DNA from: Pseudanabaena cinerea FACHB-1277
GTDB lineage: Bacteria > Cyanobacteriota > Cyanobacteriia > Pseudanabaenales > Pseudanabaenaceae
DNA length: 58,817 bases
Direction of reading: 5' to 3'
NCBI RefSeq assembly: GCF_014696345.1
Contig: NZ_JACJPY010000017.1
Location: 1-58,817, forward strand
A model generated the notes under the pieces. The model was not told where the DNA came from. It saw only the letters and a list, made by a program, of their open reading frames with translations, and did no database searches. How positions within the stretch are numbered: position 1 is the stretch's first letter; each line of letters begins with the position of its first letter. Shown one piece after another: positions 9,187 through 57,372 of this stretch. Position numbers and translations under genes: made by a program.

Positions 9187-9581
9187 TGGATGCACAAAGT
9201 TGCATACCCCAACCCAGATGCCCTCCATAGTATTGCCATGGATTTCGCAACAACCATCTTGATCGTCATTATGGGCATACTCACTCTGGGAGTAGCAAAC
9301 TGTTTGGCGCTCACACCCAGAATCAGGGATGCGATTGTAAGCATCCGATTCATCGGTATAGACTGTGGTATTTGGCAAGGTCGTTGACTCTACCTGTGGT
9401 TGAATCGTGGATTGTTGTGTATTGTCACAGACTTTCGGGCGAATCTGACCACTGTTACGCCCAACCGTGCCGACAATCGGTGGACGATCATTTGCCATTG
9501 TGTGTCTGTCTTGACGTTGATTGCTGCGCTGTCTTGGTGGGTCTGTCATCGGGTCATGTTTTGTCCCCTTTTCGCCTGCGT
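9144..9581 (-). pseudogene. IS1595 (ISXO2-like) transposase remnant
   Basis: On the minus strand the frame from about 9579 to the stop at 9154 matches the C-terminal half of ISXO2/IS1595 transposases: AGEKGTKHD, DPPRQRSN, NDRPPIVGTVGR, TVYTDESDAYNRI (catalytic Asp) and DGCCEIHGNTMEGIW (catalytic Glu). The N-terminal half is absent. Family similarity stops near 9187 (after NFVHP), and the last codons are built from the 43-nt block shared with 53.7 kb. If that block is the element's end, the right terminus is 9144. The other side ends within 3 bp of a partial CRISPR repeat, so the insertion was truncated against the array. Confidence 0.75.
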
Positions 9582-9594
9582 GAGGCTTTGAAGC
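9582..9594 (-). CRISPR. Truncated terminal CRISPR repeat (13 of 37 nt)
   Basis: GAGGCTTTGAAGC is identical to the last 13 bases of the plus-strand repeat and lies 40 bp (one spacer length) before the first full repeat. The missing 24 bases are replaced by IS1595 sequence. It marks the broken trailer end of the array. Confidence 0.8.
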
Positions 9595-9634
9595 TAGAGA
9601 TACAAAAAATAACCCGATAAGAAAGGAATCTTGG

Positions 9635-12600
9635 ATTTCAATCCCTGAAAGGGTTTTAGAGGCTTTGAAGCCAATGTCGGAGAATCGGGTAAAGCATCCC
9701 AGTCTTCGTTTCAATCCCTGAAAGGGTTTTAGAGGCTTTGAAGCCTATCCGTCTAATATCCGTCTAATATCCGTCTATCAGGTTTCAATCCCTGAAAGGG
9801 TTTTAGAGGCTTTGAAGCATTACCCAAATTTCTTAAAGCGTGCATGGTCTATTGTCGATGTTTCAATCCCTGAAAGGGTTTTAGAGGCTTTGAAGCCTTG
9901 CGTATCCGATACGTTCAATTATCGGCGGGGGGGATTGAAGTTTCAATCCCTGAAAGGGTTTTAGAGGCTTTGAAGCTCCTCTTTTTGCACCAATTAAGTA
10001 CAGAGATATACTGTTTCAATCCCTGAAAGGGTTTTAGAGGCTTTGAAGCTTGCCTTACCGATGGCTTATCGTGGGCGCACACGCAGTTTCAATCCCTGAA
10101 AGGGTTTTAGAGGCTTTGAAGCCTGACATTCTAGATACCATATGGGGGCTGTACGCTCCGTTTCAATCCCTGAAAGGGTTTTAGAGGCTTTGAAGCTCCC
10201 AATTCCAGAAGGGAGATAATTAATATTCATTAAAAGTTTCAATCCCTGAAAGGGTTTTAGAGGCTTTGAAGCGCGACATTGACGCGACAGGAGAACATGA
10301 AAAGCGCGTTTCAATCCCTGAAAGGGTTTTAGAGGCTTTGAAGCCTCTGTAGCTACATTTTGGCTGTCACACACCTTTTGTAGTTTCAATCCCTGAAAGG
10401 GTTTTAGAGGCTTTGAAGCTTTTTACTGCAATCAAGATCAAGCGGCGGCGCGATTGGGGGTTTCAATCCCTGAAAGGGTTTTAGAGGCTTTGAAGCAGTA
10501 GCCCCTACGATAGTTGCAAAAAAATGGGATGGAGCGTGTTTCAATCCCTGAAAGGGTTTTAGAGGCTTTGAAGCCAAAATAGAGCGTGATGCATCGTTGG
10601 AGAAACTTGGTTTCAATCCCTGAAAGGGTTTTAGAGGCTTTGAAGCCTTGAGGCAAGCATTAAAAGCACCACCCAAGGGTCGACCGTTTCAATCCCTGAA
10701 AGGGTTTTAGAGGCTTTGAGGCTGCAAGCAGTAGGGTTTGATAGCGTTGGCGCTCCCGTTTCAATCCCTGAAAGGGTTTTAGAGGCTTTGAAGCCATCCA
10801 AGCTAGAGAGCCAATAGCAGCTATTGGGTTTCAATCCCTGAAAGGGTTTTAGAGGCTTTGAAGCGGGAAGTGTACATCTATCACCATGCTTTGATGTAGT
10901 TTCAATCCCTGAAAGGGTTTTAGAGGCTTTGAAGCTTTATCACGCCGCAATGGTGATTTAGGAGAGAGTCGTTTCAATCCCTGAAAGGGTTTTAGAGGCT
11001 TTGAAGCAAGGATTCCTGTAGGGTGTCCCCTATCAATGCTGATGTTTCAATCCCTGAAAGGGTTTTAGAGGCTTTGAAGCCACAAGAGCCAGTGGCAAGG
11101 ATTACAGAATTCCAAGTTTCAATCCCTGAAAGGGTTTTAGAGGCTTTGAAGCTTAATGTAGCGCCGCCCACTGCCTTTCGCGGTGCGGTTTCAATCCCTG
11201 AAAGGGTTTTAGAGGCTTTGAAGCATCGGCGGCGATCATGCAATCTCAGGATTGAGTCAGTTTCAATCCCTGAAAGGGTTTTAGAGGCTTTGAAGCGTCT
11301 CACTGGCTACGGTCAAAGCGGCGCTATTCGTGTTTCAATCCCTGAAAGGGTTTTAGAGGCTTTGAAGCTTCTCTGCTTTAGCAGTCGATTGTATTCTGCC
11401 AAGTGTTTCAATCCCTGAAAGGGTTTTAGAGGCTTTGAAGCTTTATCCGTAAATATTTAATATTTAAAAACCTATTGTTTCAATCCCTGAAAGGGTTTTA
11501 GAGGCTTTGAAGCCAGACAGGTAGCTTACGATAATGGATACATCTCGTGTTTCAATCCCTGAAAGGGTTTTAGAGGCTTTGAAGCGGCGCGATCTTAGTT
11601 TTTTGCAGCAGGTAGCCGCGCGTTTCAATCCCTGAAAGGGTTTTAGAGGCTTTGAAGCGCACAAATTAGTTCTTGTTCAGTCATTTAGTGATCCGTTTCA
11701 ATCCCTGAAAGGGTTTTAGAGGCTTTGAAGCGATTTTTAGGGAGCCGTCAGCGCGTGGTACATCGTGGTTTCAATCCCTGAAAGGGTTTTAGAGGCTTTG
11801 AAGCTCCATGATGACGCAACCTTACCCGCTTCGGCACTGGCGTTTCAATCCCTGAAAGGGTTTTAGAGGCTTTGAAGCGCAATTTCGGCAATTAGCACAA
11901 GTAATGCAGCCCTGTTTCAATCCCTGAAAGGGTTTTAGAGGCTTTGAAGCAACTATTGATTAAGCGCTTAAATAGTAAATGTAAGGGTTTCAATCCCTGA
12001 AAGGGTTTTAGAGGCTTTGAAGCATTGTAAGGGAATTCTCTCTCACGATACTCTTAATGGAAGTTTCAATCCCTGAAAGGGTTTTAGAGGCTTTGAAGCT
12101 AATGGTGTATTCGTACGCGGTTTTGATAGCCTTGGTTTCAATCCCTGAAAGGGTTTTAGAGGCTTTGAAGCGTTAGTGATTCTATATGCTAGATAGCCTG
12201 TTTGCAGTTTCAATCCCTGAAAGGGTTTTAGAGGCTTTGAAGCTTTCGCCGCTTGTCGATTTGCAATTTGTGCAGTTTGTTTCTAGTTTCAATCCCTGAA
12301 AGGGTTTTAGAGGCTTTGAAGCATAAATGTTTGTAGTTAAATTTGACGATCGCACTGAAAGTTTCAATCCCTGAAAGGGTTTTAGAGGCTTTGAAGCATC
12401 AACGAGTCTAGTGGTGGAGGAGCCTCCATGAGGTTTCAATCCCTGAAAGGGTTTTAGAGGCTTTGAAGCTTGGATCGTACTATCGTGTTGCCCGCCAATC
12501 AACACGTTTCAATCCCTGAAAGGGTTTTAGAGGCTTTGAAGCATCAATGGGCAGTGGTGGGTATTAGAGATCGTGGAGTTTCAATCCCTGAAAGGGTTTT

Positions 12601-15600: not shown

Positions 15601-18600
15601 GGGTTTTAGAGGCTTTGAAGCAGTCAGCCATTCACAGCAGTTGCTCGTTTTGATGCTGTTTCAATCCCTGAAAGGGTTTTAGAGGCTTTGAAGCAATCGT
15701 TGGGCTTGCAACTCAACATATTGCACAAGTTTCAATCCCTGAAAGGGTTTTAGAGGCTTTGAAGCTACTCTTCAGGATGGTGTATCAATGGCTAACATCG
15801 GTTTCAATCCCTGAAAGGGTTTTAGAGGCTTTGAAGCGCTCCCAGCATCTAGAATCGGCGGATTGCCCTTGCAGTTTCAATCCCTGAAAGGGTTTTAGAG
15901 GCTTTGAAGCTATTCAGGAGATTAACAAGGCGATCGCGGTCTATGCGTTTCAATCCCTGAAAGGGTTTTAGAGGCTTTGAAGCATTTATCTTTTGACCCT
16001 GCTGCTGTTGCCAAGAAACAGTTTCAATCCCTGAAAGGGTTTTAGAGGCTTTGAAGCTTCGCGCAGATGAGGCGATTGCTTTAGAAAAGCACATAGTTTC
16101 AATCCCTGAAAGGGTTTTAGAGGCTTTGAAGCCAGTAACCCAAGGGACTGTGATCTACGTTCAGTGTGAGGTTTCAATCCCTGAAAGGGTTTTAGAGGCT
16201 TTGAAGCTAATTACTGTCACTGTCCTTGTACCTGGACAAACTAGGTTTCAATCCCTGAAAGGGTTTTAGAGGCTTTGAAGCATAGCGACCACACGGGGGG
16301 CTGACTCAGTACCGATATTAAGTTTCAATCCCTGAAAGGGTTTTAGAGGCTTTGAAGCAATCTGGCAACAATCGGACCAATTCAAGAGATAGGGTTTCAA
16401 TCCCTGAAAGGGTTTTAGAGGCTTTGAAGCTCGGAGAGCGGCGTGAGGGGCTTTTCCAAAGTGCTGTTTCAATCCCTGAAAGGGTTTTAGAGGCTTTGAA
16501 GCCGGTCAACAGATGAACTCGTTTACATTCACTGCTCAGTTTCAATCCCTGAAAGGGTTTTAGAGGCTTTGAAGCGCGGTAAGCAATTTCTTTGAGGCAC
16601 GGATGAAGATGTTTCAATCCCTGAAAGGGTTTTAGAGGCTTTGAAGCTGGATCTATGCCAAGAATTTGATTATAAGTCGCCTTGTTTCAATCCCTGAAAG
16701 GGGTTTAGAGGCTTTGAAGCTGCAAGCGATGCAATCTCTATGTAATTCATAGTCGGTTTCAATCCCTGAAAGGGTTTTAGAGGCTTTGAAGCTTGTAATT
16801 TTTGGCAACTTCACTTGTAACTATAAGTTTCAATCCCTGAAAGGGTTTTAGAGGCTTTGAAGCTGCGCGTAAGCGCGAAGCATATTTAAAAAGAACGTTT
16901 CAATCCCTGAAAGGGTTTTAGAGGCTTTGAAGCATTGCCGAAATTCCCACAGAAAAAGTTGAAAGCAACGGTTTCAATCCCTGAAAGGGTTTTAGAGGCT
17001 TTGAAGCAGGTCTAGGTTTGCGCTTATCGTATGGAGTATGCCCGTTTCAATCCCTGAAAGGGTTTTAGAGGCTTTGAAGCTTTGAGCATTTCCGTACCAG
17101 TTGCCTCGCGATAAACCAGTTTCAATCCCTGAAAGGGTTTTAGAGGCTTTGAAGCCAAGGTGTGGGGCAAGAATCGCACAGCTTTTTTAGTTTCAATCCC
17201 TGAAAGGGTTTTAGAGGCTTTGAAGCGCACGGGGGGTCTGCTTGCAAATGTGAACTTGATAGTTTCAATCCCTGAAAGGGTTTTAGAGGCTTTGAAGCAT
17301 AAAAAATTTGAGCGGTCTTGAGTGAGCAGTTTTTCGCCAGTTTCAATCCCTGAAAGGGTTTTAGAGGCTTTGAAGCTCGTAAAAACTAGGGCTATGGAAA
17401 TGTGGGGCGTTTCAATCCCTGAAAGGGTTTTAGAGGCTTTGAAGCTTGAAAGTCGCCGCGCTTGGCATCTCCCCAAGATCGTTTCAATCCCTGAAAGGGT
17501 TTTAGAGGCTTTGAAGCAGTTGCAGGGCGGTATTTTTACTGCCAATACTAGGGTTTCAATCCCTGAAAGGGTTTTAGAGGCTTTGAAGCGCGACTGTTGC
17601 TGGCTTTTTGGCAGTGCTTAGCCCGTTTCAATCCCTGAAAGGGTTTTAGAGGCTTTGAAGCTATATGCAAAGTTTGTCGGATCGGTTAGTCCATCTTGTT
17701 TCAATCCCTGAAAGGGTTTTAGAGGCTTTGAAGCGGGAAGGGGGGCGTAATTGACGCTAATACAGGCAAGTTTCAATCCCTGAAAGGGTTTTAGAGGCTT
17801 TGAAGCAATCAGCCGCTTGCTGTGCTGGAGACGGTGGTTTGTTTCAATCCCTGAAAGGGTTTTAGAGGCTTTGAAGCCCAATCCGCCTGTATGGGTTTGT
17901 GGCTTGCCAAAGTTTCAATCCCTGAAAGGGTTTTAGAGGCTTTGAAGCCCCGAAGTTGTTGAGGTTGAAGTTGTTGAGGTTGAGTTTCAATCCCTGAAAG
18001 GGTTTTAGAGGCTTTGAAGCGCACCTGTTTGTTGCGCGGCTACCTGCTGCAAAAGTTTCAATCCCTGAAAGGGTTTTAGAGGCTTTGAAGCGCTATGGGT
18101 TACGCCTCGGTGCGGATGATGCTCTTCAGTTTCAATCCCTGAAAGGGTTTTAGAGGCTTTGAAGCCAATATTGCAGTCAGAAAAGTACTTACAAATTTGA
18201 GTTTCAATCCCTGAAAGGGTTTTAGAGGCTTTGAAGCTTTGAGACGATCCGAGGATCATCGGCAATCAGAGCGTTTCAATCCCTGAAAGGGTTTTAGAGG
18301 CTTTGAAGCAATGAAAAAAATTAGTAAAGGTGTTTTTCTATCGATGGTTTCAATCCCTGAAAGGGTTTTAGAGGCTTTGAAGCGCGTGTTCTCAGTGGTA
18401 GGCGTGGCTCAAGGCGTGTTTCAATCCCTGAAAGGGTTTTAGAGGCTTTGAAGCAAGGCTAGATTAGCCTCTATAAGTGAAAAGCTTGTGTTTCAATCCC
18501 TGAAAGGGTTTTAGAGGCTTTGAAGCCTAAGAGTATTCACCTTAAAAAGTGTATATCTCGTTTCAATCCCTGAAAGGGTTTTAGAGGCTTTGAAGCTCAT

Positions 18601-52809: not shown

Positions 52810-53670
52810 ATGTCCCGTAAAGGCGAATCCATAACACTATCCATATCCGATCGCGACAAATCTCAACTCGAAGCGATCGCGCTAGAACTTGGCATGATGT
52901 GGGGCGATCGCCCAAATATCTCCAAACTAGTCGAAGCGATCGCCCGTAAGCAAATCCAAATCTCCAAAAATAATGACTGGGCAAGCGATCGCATTGAAAC
53001 ACTTTCGCGTGCTTACAGGCTTTTTGTTGACTCTGGTGACTTGGAAAAAGCACAAATCATCGCACATCTATTACTAGAACGGAGTGAACTTAACACCCCA
53101 CTCCGTCGCGACATCGAGCGATTTCTCGATAAGCCCCCCCAAATTTGGCGACATACCATCGATCGCTACATCAAGCAACAACAGCCCTTTAGTTTGCAAT
53201 ACCTTGATGCTGCCGATCATCCCTATGAATTTGCCATTTATTATGCCAAAGTTACGCCCCATGACAAACGGTTATACCTTGATTGTTGGTGCAAAGATAT
53301 TGCCAGAGCCGATACAGTGAGCGCTTTACAGCATAACCGATGTCTTAGACTTGATCGTATTCCCCATGAAGCCGCAATTACTCCCATTCAGGGCAAATGG
53401 CGATCGCAACTGGATTACATTCATGTCACTTTTAATCTATCGGGAAATCTTGCCCACGCTTACCAAGAACGAGAGGAAGACATTGATAATACATGGCTGG
53501 ATAAAAATCCGCCCACCCGTCAAATTATTCGCAAAATTAGCAGCACCTTTTGGTTCTATCGCGAGATTCTGCCCTATGCCGAAGATTGCGAAATTATTGA
53601 GCCAATGGATGTGCGCGAAAAATTCAAAGAGAAGGTGCGATCTCTTTATCTTAAATATACAAAGGAGTGA
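52810..53670 (+). CDS. WYL-domain transcriptional regulator
   Basis: The 286-residue protein has a short N-terminal DNA-binding region (residues 1-50, with DRDKSQLEAIALELGM and NISKLVEAIARKQIQI) and a WYL domain (about 110-200: RYIKQQQPFSLQYLDAADHPYEFAIYYAKVTPHDKRLYLDCWCKD and LRLDRI). A C-terminal part contains RQIIRKISSTFWFYREILPYAEDCEIIEP. In Synechocystis a WYL protein next to the type I-D locus (Sll7009) represses that array. Position and family suggest the same job here. The inverted repeat in the leader promoter is a candidate target. Confidence 0.82.
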   Translation: MSRKGESITLSISDRDKSQLEAIALELGMMWGDRPNISKLVEAIARKQIQISKNNDWASDRIETLSRAYRLFVDSGDLEKAQIIAHLLLERSELNTPLRRDIERFLDKPPQIWRHTIDRYIKQQQPFSLQYLDAADHPYEFAIYYAKVTPHDKRLYLDCWCKDIARADTVSALQHNRCLRLDRIPHEAAITPIQGKWRSQLDYIHVTFNLSGNLAHAYQEREEDIDNTWLDKNPPTRQIIRKISSTFWFYREILPYAEDCEIIEPMDVREKFKEKVRSLYLKYTKE

Positions 53671-53673
53671 CAG

Positions 53674-53811
53674 GGCTGCTAATTCAATTAGGCTCTATTG
53701 GGTTTCCTTTAGATTCTTTCGCGATCGCTGTCCACATTTATACCAAGTTCTTCTAGAATCGTAAACATATAGCTGTCGCCAGAGATAAACATAAAGATGA
53801 CTAACGATCAA
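53674..53811. repeat. Right copy of the island-flanking direct repeat, split by 95 bp
   Basis: The 24-nt block (53674-53697) starts 4 bp after the WYL stop. The 19-nt block (53793-53811) covers the ATG and first five codons of the NACHT gene. Both match 9144-9186 exactly and in the same orientation, where they abut. The 95 bp between them hold no plus-strand gene; on the minus strand they read open as a 27-codon tail (MFISGDSYMFTILEELG...). Confidence 0.85.
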
Positions 53812-56800
53812 CCGAATGATAAATCTGATCAAAAGCCAGTAATGTCAACGGATACGCGCCGACAGTTAAGGCATCAACGGGTGCAAAAAGTTGTCAAGTA
53901 TTTAGGGCTTTTGACTGGTGGTTTGGGTGTCTTTGGTTCTGTGGGTTTATGGTGGTTGGGGCATCCTTCGGCAACAATGATTCTGACGGGATTCATTACG
54001 GCGGTGGGGACGGTTTTGGCGATCGCCTATAAGTTCATCTCCAATGTCACAAATAAGGTTTGGGACAAGATCGAGGAGGAGTTAGAAGGGCTAGAAGAGC
54101 CTTTGGCAAATTGGATTGTGGCTTGGCTGAAGAATGGCGCGATCGCTTTGTACTGGAATATTAATCCTAAGTTTCAGCGCGATTATTATCAGAGTTTGAT
54201 TGATAGTTTTCGAGAATTTCGGCTTGATGGCTTTCGGGTGGGGTTGCCTGTTCTGGATTTAGAGAATGTGTTTGTACCTTTGCGGGTAATTTCGGCGAGT
54301 CCTGAAAAGATATCAGGGGCAATGATTCACACCCATAGTCATAGTGGTAGTCAGGAAATATGGGATTTTTTAAGTAAAAGTAAGAAGTTTCAGAGCTATC
54401 GCCGTTTAGCGGTGGTGGGCGCTCCTGGATCGGGCAAAACAACGCTGTTGAAGTATTTGGCGCTGATTTATGCCAAGAAGAAGAATCAAGAGCATAATGC
54501 GCCCAAGTTTATTCCTGTGCTGTTGTATTTGCGGGATATTAGCGATCGCCTTGTGACCAGTCAGCCGCCGAATCTGTGCGAATTGATCGAGAGTCACATT
54601 AAGTCATTACCTAGCCATACCGATCTTACGCCGCCGCCAAATTGGATTCAAAATCAATTAGAGATTGGTAATTGCTTGGTGATGTTGGATGGATTGGATG
54701 AAGTGGCGGATGCAGAACAACGTCAAAAGGTGAGCCAATGGGTGAACAGTCAAATGGAAATCTATCGCCAAACGCCTTTCATTTTGACTTCGCGTCCTGA
54801 TGGTTACAATAGTGCGCCTGTAGATTTGGTGGGAACGGTGCTGAAGGTGCTGCCCTTTACCCACGCTCAGATGAAGGATTTCATTCATAGTTGGTATCCG
54901 CAAACGGAAATTATGAGTCGGGCGGGGCGGGATACGCCTGCGGTGAGGGCTGAGGCGAAAAAGAATGCTGATGATTTGATCGATCGCATTATCGATAATC
55001 GGGCGATCGCGGATATGGCGACAAATCCGCTTTTGGTGACGATGATTGCAACGGTGCATTATAACGGCAGTGCGCTACCCAAAGGGCGGGTGGATCTTTA
55101 TCAAAAGATCTGTGATGTGCTGTTGGGGGCGCGTCAGGCTGCGAAGCAGAATATTACTACGGCGTTAACGGGTGTGCAGAATAAGGCGGTTTTGCAGGTG
55201 TTGGCTTTGGAGCTAATGAAAGCGAAAACCCGCGAGTTTAGTCTTGATCAAGGTGAGAAGTTGATCGCTGATGAATTGGTTAAGGTGGCGGGAGGTTCGC
55301 TAACGGCTAGGGCGTTTTTGCTGCAAATCAAGGAGATTTGTGGATTGTTAATGGAACGAGAGTTAGGGGTTTATGAGTTCGCGCATTTGAGTTTTCAGGA
55401 ATATTTGGCGGCTTCGCAAATTAAGGAATCACAGGATGATACTTTGCTGACTGCCAATTTAGATGATCCTTGGTGGGCGGAGACGATCAGGCTCTATGCG
55501 GCGCAGGGTGATGCGACAAAGTTGATTGAGGCAGCGATCGCTAAGCCCACTGTCAAATCCTTGAGTCTTGCCTTTGATTGTTTGCAGGAGGCAGCGAAGG
55601 TGGAATCGGGGACGCGCCAAAGGTTAACGGATTTGTTGGAGGCGGGTTTGGAGTCGGATGATCCGCAAATTGCGAAGTTGGCGGCGGAGGTGAGTTTGTT
55701 ACGCAGGTTGAATAATTTGTGTAAGGTGAATGAGAATCTGGAAATTGATTTGAAATACATTACTTGTGCAGAATTTCAATTGTTCCTAGATGAAAAATAT
55801 GTTCCCAATCCAAGCAATCGCTTTGATCCTAAAGATGCGCGAAATCCAGTTATCACTAACAAACTAGAGACTGTACTTGAATTTTGTAATTGGTTGAATT
55901 TAAAAGCTCCATCGCTTAGTGGTAGTGGGGAATGTCTGGATCTTGATAGCTATTATCGATTGCCAGTTGGAGCAGAACTCTTAGCTCATAATGTACATAC
56001 TTCTTCACAGGTATGTTTCTGGACAATTGCGGAGAATAAATCTACTCACAACAAAATTCGCATTGTGAGAGCTTCACTAGATGCTGACTATATTCAATTG
56101 ACTAAATATCTAGCGGCGCAGGAATGGATAAAGGCTGACAACGAGACAGTGAGAGTGATCCTCAAATTGACAAATCAAGACGAAATCAATGTTGAGACTA
56201 TGCAGATGTTGTCTAATGCTGATATCAATACGATAAATCGCTTGTGGTTGTATTACTCCCACGGACTCTTTAGCTTAGGAATACAGTTCAATATTTGGGA
56301 AAGACTAGGCGGAAATCCCATAGCATCGTACTTACCATCTGCTCTGTGGTATTCCAATAATTCTGTAAGTCCCCAAGCCCTATTTGCGACATTTGCACGT
56401 AAATGGGATCAACTAGAAAAATTACCTTTTGAAAGCTCTCTATCTCAATCTCAATTTGATGTGATTACAGTCAATGAGCAAGGACAGGAAACTCAACGAA
56501 AACAGGCTTCGTCTCGATATTTTCACGAAAGTCTCGATCAAGATATGGAGTATTTGGCGATTCATATGGTGTTAATTCCTGCGGGTAGCTTTGTGATGGG
56601 AGCGCCTGCAAATGAAAAAGAAAGCAGAGACACTGAACGTCCACAGCATGAGGTGAAGGTTCCAGAATTCTTTATGGGTAAATATCCGATTACCCAATCC
56701 CAATGGCGAGTTGTGGCGGCTATGCCTAAAATCATGATAGATCTGAAACTCGATCCTTCTGGTTTCAAAAGCGATGCTCTCTCTGTGGAGAATGTGTCAT

Positions 56801-57372
56801 GGTATGAGGCAATGGAATTTTGTGCAAGATTATCCAATCACACAGGACGCGCATATCGCTTACCTAGCGAAGCAGAATGGGAATATGCCTGTCGCGCAGG
56901 AACAACAACGCCATTCCATTTTGGCGAAGCTATCACTCCCGAAATTGTTAACCACAACGGTTATCGCCGTATCAGCCCACCACCAAATCCTGCTTTTTTA
57001 ATGCTCAAACCTGTGGGCAGTTTTCCCCCTAATGCCTTTGGTTTGTACGATATGCATGGCAATGTCTGGGAATGGTGCGCTGATGATTGGCATGACAGTT
57101 ATAAAGGAGCGCCCACGGATGGCAGCGCATGGGTTGATGGTAATCGAAAATTATATAGAGATCGCACTTTGAACAAATCTAACAATCCTTCTAAAACGCT
57201 TCAGAAGATGACAGATCTTATACTAATTTTTATGGGAGCCAATGAACCGTTAAAGCTGCTACGCGGTGGTTCGTGGCGAAGCTTTGCTTGTTATTCTGCA
57301 TATCGTATTAACGACCTTAACAATTTGGATTGCTACCCTCATGGTTTTAGAGTTGCTTGCTCTTTGCTGTGA
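53797..57372 (+). CDS. NACHT-GUN4-FGE/SUMF1 fusion protein
   Basis: This 1191-residue NLR-like protein has two N-terminal membrane helices (about 35-75). A NACHT NTPase follows, with Walker A GAPGSGKTT (208-216), Walker B LVMLDGLDEVAD (from 294) and the NACHT-associated FAHLSFQEYLAA helix (about 525-540). A GUN4-like domain (about 755-880) reads KYLAAQEWIKADNETVRVILKL ... DINTINRLWLYYSHGLFSLGIQFNIWERLGG. A C-terminal formylglycine-generating-enzyme/C-type-lectin fold (about 915-1191) has MVLIPAGSFVMG, GLYDMHGNVWEWCADDW and LLRGGSW ... GFRVAC. Bacterial NACHT proteins are often anti-phage sensors, and the CRISPR neighbourhood fits. Ligand and output are unknown. An alternative start is Met16. 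Confidence 0.85.
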   Translation: MTNDQPNDKSDQKPVMSTDTRRQLRHQRVQKVVKYLGLLTGGLGVFGSVGLWWLGHPSATMILTGFITAVGTVLAIAYKFISNVTNKVWDKIEEELEGLEEPLANWIVAWLKNGAIALYWNINPKFQRDYYQSLIDSFREFRLDGFRVGLPVLDLENVFVPLRVISASPEKISGAMIHTHSHSGSQEIWDFLSKSKKFQSYRRLAVVGAPGSGKTTLLKYLALIYAKKKNQEHNAPKFIPVLLYLRDISDRLVTSQPPNLCELIESHIKSLPSHTDLTPPPNWIQNQLEIGNCLVMLDGLDEVADAEQRQKVSQWVNSQMEIYRQTPFILTSRPDGYNSAPVDLVGTVLKVLPFTHAQMKDFIHSWYPQTEIMSRAGRDTPAVRAEAKKNADDLIDRIIDNRAIADMATNPLLVTMIATVHYNGSALPKGRVDLYQKICDVLLGARQAAKQNITTALTGVQNKAVLQVLALELMKAKTREFSLDQGEKLIADELVKVAGGSLTARAFLLQIKEICGLLMERELGVYEFAHLSFQEYLAASQIKESQDDTLLTANLDDPWWAETIRLYAAQGDATKLIEAAIAKPTVKSLSLAFDCLQEAAKVESGTRQRLTDLLEAGLESDDPQIAKLAAEVSLLRRLNNLCKVNENLEIDLKYITCAEFQLFLDEKYVPNPSNRFDPKDARNPVITNKLETVLEFCNWLNLKAPSLSGSGECLDLDSYYRLPVGAELLAHNVHTSSQVCFWTIAENKSTHNKIRIVRASLDADYIQLTKYLAAQEWIKADNETVRVILKLTNQDEINVETMQMLSNADINTINRLWLYYSHGLFSLGIQFNIWERLGGNPIASYLPSALWYSNNSVSPQALFATFARKWDQLEKLPFESSLSQSQFDVITVNEQGQETQRKQASSRYFHESLDQDMEYLAIHMVLIPAGSFVMGAPANEKESRDTERPQHEVKVPEFFMGKYPITQSQWRVVAAMPKIMIDLKLDPSGFKSDALSVENVSWYEAMEFCARLSNHTGRAYRLPSEAEWEYACRAGTTTPFHFGEAITPEIVNHNGYRRISPPPNPAFLMLKPVGSFPPNAFGLYDMHGNVWEWCADDWHDSYKGAPTDGSAWVDGNRKLYRDRTLNKSNNPSKTLQKMTDLILIFMGANEPLKLLRGGSWRSFACYSAYRINDLNNLDCYPHGFRVACSLL

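Follow-up and report, generated by a model that had tools for sequence, protein, structure and literature searches.

The DNA analysed here, referred to as the window, is a stretch of 58,817 nucleotides that makes up the entire contig C79 of Pseudanabaena cinerea FACHB-1277, whose genome of 4.77 Mb is distributed over 179 contigs. Toward its end the window has an intact open reading frame (ORF) for a protein of 1191 amino acids, in which a NACHT NTPase is fused to a GUN4 domain and to an FGE/C-type-lectin end of the kind diversified by diversity-generating retroelements (DGRs). The gene, its domains and its variable region (VR) are as follows.

53797..57372, + strand: NACHT-GUN4-FGE protein, 1191 amino acids, intact ORF with ATG at 53797 and stop at 57372
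53893..54039, + strand: hydrophobic N-terminal region, residues about 33-81, with a clear helix at 58-81 and a second, weaker one (Kyte-Doolittle)
54400..54897, + strand: NACHT NTPase, residues 202-367 (Pfam; Walker motifs)
54994..55716, + strand: putative winged-helix and helical-repeat region, residues about 400-640 (model helices, alignment)
55744..56067, + strand: CLec1, degenerate FGE/C-type-lectin-like domain, residues about 650-757 (Pfam match of the relative L137, and alignment)
56077..56421, + strand: GUN4 domain, residues about 761-875 (Pfam and structure alignment)
56563..57369, + strand: CLec2, FGE/C-type-lectin domain of DGR-target kind, residues 923-1191 (Pfam, structure, VR comparison)
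57262..57354, + strand: DGR-type VR, RGGSW...GFRV, residues 1156-1186 (sequence comparison)

Domains, fold and GUN4 pocket

Three domains of the window protein were above their Pfam gathering cut-offs: NACHT (residues 202-367, 1.2e-13), GUN4 (residues 762-856, 5.9e-17, profile positions 5-103 of 141) and FGE-sulfatase (residues 923-1116, 1.3e-48). The NACHT domain has Walker A (GAPGSGKT, residue 208) and Walker B (LVMLDGLDE, residue 294), and the GUN4 domain has the motifs EWIKADNET, DINTINRLW and YSHGLFSLGIQ. An NLR-like (nucleotide-binding, leucine-rich-repeat-like) NACHT protein with an embedded GUN4 and a lectin end behind it had been proposed in a sequence-only reading of this DNA, and this layout was confirmed. 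In CLec1 the window protein aligns with L137, whose own region clears the Pfam FGE cut-off (24.5 vs 23.3 bits). No Pfam family reached its cut-off in residues about 400-640; the domain name given above is suggested by helices of the model from residue 562 onward and by conserved columns in the alignment of relatives.

The AlphaFold model covered residues 562-1191, was built from 13 aligned sequences and was of middling quality (mean predicted local distance difference test score, pLDDT, 65.6). Means of ten residues were 78-90 for the initial 60 GUN4 residues and 40-75 in the remaining part. With VIA-align the model matched the solved GUN4 structures 7e2t (Z 11.9, root-mean-square deviation (rmsd) 5.3, 150 residues aligned) and 7e2r_A (Z 11.7, rmsd 2.3, 108 aligned), the latter over model residues 201-314, which are residues 762-875 of the protein, and the C-terminus matched PvdO (Z 11.1) and the DGR protein TvpA (2y3c, Z 10.8). 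Because of these matches we consider that the GUN4 fold is truly present and is not a chance motif. With Foldseek alone, 7e2t was found at rank 46 (E 9.7e-4), beneath many FGE chains.

At the N-terminus, the segment 58-81 rises above 1.6 on the Kyte-Doolittle scale averaged over 19 residues, and 33-52 stays below it, so a membrane hairpin is plausible; the membrane anchor of the sequence-only reading is probable, with one clear segment. The layout is NLR-like in having the switch and the C-terminal domains, and the place of an N-terminal effector is taken by the hydrophobic segment alone. Bacterial NACHT antiphage proteins include bNACHT and Avs. The window protein resembles this kind weakly (residues 292-461 against NCBIfam EruA, 1.8e-8; 33 of 1000 bits, far under the cut-off), and the window protein has different ends. 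PADLOC PD-T4-6 was rejected as its identity, since the match covers residues 737-870, that is GUN4 only. The PD-T4-6 model PDLC04062 also matches plain GUN4 sequence, and therefore may give false defence calls in cyanobacteria.

Important pocket residues of GUN4, according to passages of PMC8967248 and PMC10156173, are SynPhe196, SynArg214 and Asn211, the last within LxNxLR. When the canonical GUN4 of the own genome was aligned, F196, N211 and R214 fell near profile positions 111, 126 and 129, and the window match stops short of them, at 103. LxNxLR is absent from residues 741-925 of the window protein, and among 44 aligned GUN4 domains (43 with the tail element described below and one canonical) it occurs in the canonical copy only. 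In all five NACHT-GUN4-FGE proteins found, the GUN4 match to Pfam breaks off at profile 80-107, while it reaches 126-135 in five scanned GUN4-terminal NACHT proteins and 133 in a Microcystis FD4 protein discussed below. Compared with canonical GUN4, the Mg-chelatase cofactor (C168, L001), the window domain has the same fold but a degenerate pocket half without LxNxLR; its first half is well modelled and its pocket half is unrecognisable by sequence.

That reading had supposed that GUN4 reports tetrapyrrole status, binding porphyrin or bilin and so gating NACHT. The fold is real, and a tetrapyrrole- or porphyrin-sensor role has been proposed in print for GUN4 in conflict systems (PMC7159879, in part). 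Against this, the equivalents of F196, N211 and R214 are unrecognisable, and a passage of PMC10156173 takes LxNxLR loss in GUN4 paralogs as loss of bilin binding. The same source reports that an N219G change abolished bilin but not porphyrin binding, therefore that residue alone does not exclude porphyrin binding, and porphyrin or bilin might be bound via other residues. Tetrapyrrole sensing by the window protein is not supported by its sequence, and we hold such a sensor to be quite unlikely.

Relatives, variable regions and retroelements

A full-length relative, the nearest to the window protein, was found in one of 115 other genomes (G005, 65% identity), and G094 matches in two pieces within one frame. 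The gene is sporadic, with a full-length match in one of 25 same-genus relatives. Later searches added GUN4+FGE relatives in G204 and in G339, where the NACHT part is in a separate frame directly upstream. An alignment of CLec1-GUN4 searched against 386 cyanobacterial genomes gave a match at 1e-30 in 26, and ten of these (own genome included) start at profile position 1-5 and extend into GUN4. A NACHT-GUN4 protein from another genome of the genus (L063) matches up to and into GUN4 in at least 15 of the 386 genomes, a lower bound with two candidates scored per genome; in one of the 15 (G341) the match starts as late as residue 287. Among these relatives, four or more kinds of end are joined to the NACHT core:

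GUN4+FGE: G005, G094, G204, G339
FGE without GUN4: G208 (L148)
GUN4 with hypervariable tail: G107, G183, G194, G171, G298, G290, G070, G049 (read from sequence; NACHT scanned in the G107 and G183 proteins)
other ends, CLec1 with long inserts: L037, L038, L042, L044

In the last kind, L037 is full of repeats similar to RDLDRDRD, and its end, near GIRIVR, is like that of the lectin fold.

The VR is far more variable than the domain which holds it. The window protein shares 74% identity with G005 in the FGE core (131/176) and 35% in the VR (7/20, with 4 gap columns). In all 15 pairs of window, G005, G094, G204, G339 and G208, the VR identity is 19-55% against 60-74% in the core.

The own genome has three reverse transcriptase (RT; RVT_1) matches, all of them located on C137, C122 and C1. 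The same search gave no RVT_1 match on C79, so there is no RT in cis. Two DGRs were recognised, on C122 (L013) and C137 (L012). The template and VR differ at 15/32 adenines and 0/96 other bases in the C122 DGR, and at 14/32 adenines and 4/111 other bases in the C137 DGR; within the VR, compared end to end, these true pairs show 0/75 and 0/68 non-adenine mismatches. C137 also holds a further template-like repeat, TRb.

A DGR was found beside a related GUN4-FGE protein. Plasmid p1FD4 of Microcystis aeruginosa FD4 (L206) encodes a SAV_2336-GUN4-FGE protein which is 38.5% identical to window residues 764-1188, and its gene adjoins a MoxR ATPase, Avd and an RT. Between the template and its VR, 17/34 adenines and 1/96 other bases are changed (P=4.4e-11), and a second FGE target on the plasmid differs at 14/34 adenines and 1/97 other bases. 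This marks the Microcystis FD4 protein as one that a DGR diversifies.

A probable conflict protein and rival readings

From the domains and folds, the loss of a recognisable pocket, the swapping of ends, the variability of the VR and the action of a DGR on a related GUN4-FGE protein, we consider it fairly probable that the window protein is an NLR-like cyanobacterial conflict protein of the STAND/NACHT kind (signal transduction ATPases with numerous domains), with CLec1-GUN4-CLec2 as sensor end and GUN4 as a repurposed scaffold. The immune function is inferred from the architecture and from published proposals (PMC10907252, in part). The protein would consist of an N-terminal membrane segment, then the NACHT switch and then a swappable, diversified sensor, in which GUN4 would not bind tetrapyrroles in the canonical way and would act as a structural module bearing the variable lectin-like domain. 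The variable end would bind a ligand, probably phage-derived or a damaged self protein; upon binding the NACHT domains would oligomerise, and the clustered membrane helices might damage the membrane or recruit an effector.

Several known systems are close to this. The putative NACHT/STAND antigen sensors with DGR-CLec ends (passages of PMC10907252) share the central NACHT, the C-terminal FGE/CLec with VR and the proposed antigen sensing. In contrast to them, the window protein has GUN4 and CLec1 ahead of the CLec, its contig gave no RT match, and its VR fits none of the three known templates of the genome. The VMAP/MoxR ternary conflict systems (passages of PMC7159879 and PMC8195603) have GUN4 and FGS modules in cyanobacterial conflict proteins in common with it, and the MoxR ATPase beside the Microcystis gene adds to the likeness, but in the window protein GUN4 and FGE are fused to NACHT. 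GUN4-like domains were also named among DGR variable proteins in a passage of PMC7517822. The sequence-only reading had claimed that no defence system of this architecture is described. For the order NACHT-GUN4-FGE, no describing paper was found among the open-licence papers listed. For the parts the claim is too broad, since the VMAP/MoxR sources already list GUN4 and FGE as components of cyanobacterial conflict systems.

Some results weigh against the preferred reading. Compared end to end with the three known templates, the window VR has 23/72, 11/61 and 13/63 non-adenine mismatches, and its adenine bias is mild (P 0.002-0.014) and no better than that of non-matching template-VR pairs. Since it fits none of the three, the window gene is not shown to be under DGR diversification now. 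In G094, a VR-like copy lies 449 nt downstream; its adenine bias lacks significance (4/22 vs 6/107, P=0.067), and the G094 genome gave no RT match. BLAST revealed no additional template in the own genome, but it is a weak test because the known templates were not recovered either; for this reason, and with the genome in 179 contigs, a further template may exist. In addition, no PADLOC model spans the whole window protein, the PD-T4-6 match lying over GUN4 alone, and no assay of any member was found.

Given the mismatches, we rejected the window VR as a target of the own-genome DGRs as far as their three known templates go; a local alignment with TRb is too short to decide this, and the rejection rests on the end-to-end alignment of all three. 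The G094 copy was rejected as a live template on its P value. The end of the window protein is of DGR type and apparently unserviced at present.

Retention of the fold with loss of the ligand residues would also be expected of an integrated decoy, as used by plant NLRs. GUN4 would then persist as bait for an invader protein directed against the Mg-chelatase/GUN4 pathway or mimicking it, and such interference would trip NACHT. Inactive enzyme domains are discussed as decoys in such conflict systems by Kaur et al. (PMC7159879, in part). Against a bait, GUN4 is less conserved than the whole protein (window vs G005, 48% or 36/75 in residues 762-836 vs 65% in the full alignment), and the version L148 has no GUN4; we regard a decoy as unlikely.

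A signalling protein outside immunity, such as a switch for stress or cell differentiation with a host ligand bound by its lectin domain, would agree with a passage of PMC7517822 in which cyanobacterial DGR targets are read as tuning regulatory pathways. It agrees less with the sporadic presence of the gene and with the layout of NACHT plus variable lectin end, which is the one proposed for putative antigen sensors (PMC10907252, in part), and we give it little credit.

The window protein holds one of eight GUN4 domains in the genome. The others are the canonical one, two in NACHT-GUN4 proteins (C29, C153), and four in proteins read as kinases (C179, with two domains; C1) and in a short protein (C35). 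The genome has 12 FGE matches. A possible partner gene lies directly upstream of the window gene:

52810..53670, + strand: WYL/WCX regulator-like gene

The scanned neighbours, which cover part of the window, showed no MoxR or vWA partner. The CRISPR-adjacent position given by the sequence-only reading is real, as type I-D cas genes near the window gene and a large array are on the same contig. This very long array (window 9636-35883) has 357 exact copies of one 30-mer, with spacing mostly 71-74. A defence neighbourhood does not recur beside the two relatives examined: on their contigs of 11 and 19 kb, no PADLOC match was obtained in eight other listed ORFs beside G005 or in eight of the larger ORFs beside G094. 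A role as CRISPR accessory gene is thus unsupported, the neighbourhood not being conserved there. As a whole, the sequence-only interpretation is partly supported.

Hypervariable GUN4 tails and a linked transposase

The relatives that end in GUN4 are alike as far as GHLP, or a variant such as GELP, and diverge after it. They finish with three kinds of short peptide, FSRIETC.., LFSHRDL and LASRLVKCN.., which are one DNA element read in three frames, and this conserved DNA tail gives a stop in each frame. With up to 3 mismatches, the 29-nt tail element was found in 37 of 116 genomes and 20 of 59 genera, and its reversed pattern in none. In the own genome it is on C29 (L003/L118) and C153 (L005/L117) only, and none is at the window gene. 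Besides the own-genome loci, such ends were noted at L064-L133 and L167-L205. Among 53 distinct tail sites, frames 0, 1 and 2 are used 22, 16 and 15 times, the element closes an ORF of 100 amino acids or more at 50, and a GUN4 motif was recognised by our own pattern at 48. In genome_contigs (84,980 species), exact matches to the element lie at 39 loci, all cyanobacteria by title. The pattern found the GUN4 motif at 32 of them, L167 and L175 look like GUN4 by eye, and the remaining five end very short frames, L195 of these being at a locus edge. IMG/VR had no exact match. About 100 nt past tail sites (e.g. L075, L078, L084), a further conserved non-coding stretch was seen by eye, often with GTTACCTGKCACC.

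Between the GHLP codons and the tail lies a variable segment. Canonical GUN4 reads GHLPLSNQLRG...FSHPAW there, so the segment occupies the place of the ligand motif. The model of the C29 GUN4 (pLDDT 88) keeps the fold (Z 18.0 to 4xkb, rmsd 2.4, 141 aligned). The segments are dominated by G and T (G 41%, T 33%, A 16%, C 11%), being G-rich, and are 17 to about 100 nt long, and their length modulo three shows no clear preference (21, 14 and 15 of 50). In 104 pairs from 50 sites with more than 70% upstream identity, the upstream part averages 0.77 and the tail 0.88, and the 130 nt that begin with the tail average 0.70; the segments themselves reach 0.43, where shuffled ones give 0.40. Eight pairs above 85% gave, in the same order, 0.88, 0.91, 0.69 and 0.44, against 0.41 shuffled. 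The tail identities are biased upward because the tail was picked by pattern, and the pairs are not independent.

The closest case is a plasmid of Cylindrospermopsis curvispora GIHE-G1 (L212), whose two GUN4 genes (9344-10474 and 17366-18460) are 99% identical over the 100 nt that lead up to the segment and 97.6% across 250 nt after it, while the segments, of 67 and 35 nt, are unrelated (36%). The L212 stretch also has further GUN4 genes and a psbA copy. Plasmids of Tolypothrix PCC 7712, PCC 7601 and Fremyella NIES-3275 are near-identical, and the first two have GUN4 proteins with the same accessions; as the protein ends of PCC 7712 lack the usual tail peptides, within-strain variation is not decided by these plasmids.

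Pseudogene decay was rejected as origin of the tails: all 50 segments are open in the gene frame, where 20.8 were expected from shuffles, and 44 of 100 are open in the two remaining frames. The in-frame motif by which segments were defined gives open ones an advantage, and three of the 53 sites have no defined segment (L066, contig edge; L109, broken; L110, open but with the motif missed). Copying from nearby DNA was not seen, the longest exact match in the own locus being 10.1 against 9.6 shuffled (35 loci), with L105 as the sole outlier (35 nt). Copying from elsewhere in the genome was not seen for one 99-nt segment tested.

Some tails lie beside a transposase. A Y1_Tnp search in 18 of the 37 tail-site genomes gave 64 matches in about 101 Mb, and 12 of 32 tail sites have one within 1 kb downstream, where about 0.02 are expected at random. 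Nine of the 12 are on the opposite strand (that of G107 with an internal stop) and three on the same strand; examples are G000:C29:168-509 and G060:C1:426653-426988. The transposase adjoining the second Cylindrospermopsis GUN4 gene is also Y1_Tnp (9.5e-18). We label these genes RAYT on the basis of the Y1_Tnp family match. Against the link, 20 of the 32 tail sites have no Y1_Tnp nearby, and G021 has a tail site and no Y1_Tnp match in its genome; a transposase in cis is therefore not needed for tail persistence.

Taken with the window gene, these tails suggest, with about even chances, that the GUN4 fold serves in cyanobacterial conflict proteins as a scaffold for ends diversified by two mechanisms. 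One would be DGR rewriting of an attached lectin domain, the kind of the window gene. The other would be a transposase-linked system, in which the G-rich segment without fixed frame is renewed between the GHLP codons and the tail. As the segment replaces exactly the GUN4 ligand motif, each gene would carry a new binding tip. This can be likened to the junctional diversity of antibody genes. No paper on hypervariable tails of GUN4 or RAYT was found among the open-licence papers listed, and the transposase-linked tail system is apparently not described so far.

It means that the idea of an NLR for chlorophyll status is replaced by a testable one, in which a fold of the photosynthesis pathway is the scaffold for fast-changing sensor ends. 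The close Cylindrospermopsis paralogues make tail diversification open to direct experiment. We know of no other system which diversifies a protein part with changed length and reading frame. If it is true that the Y1 transposase helps to make the tails, prokaryotes would have another route, besides DGRs, for diversifying a defined portion of a protein.

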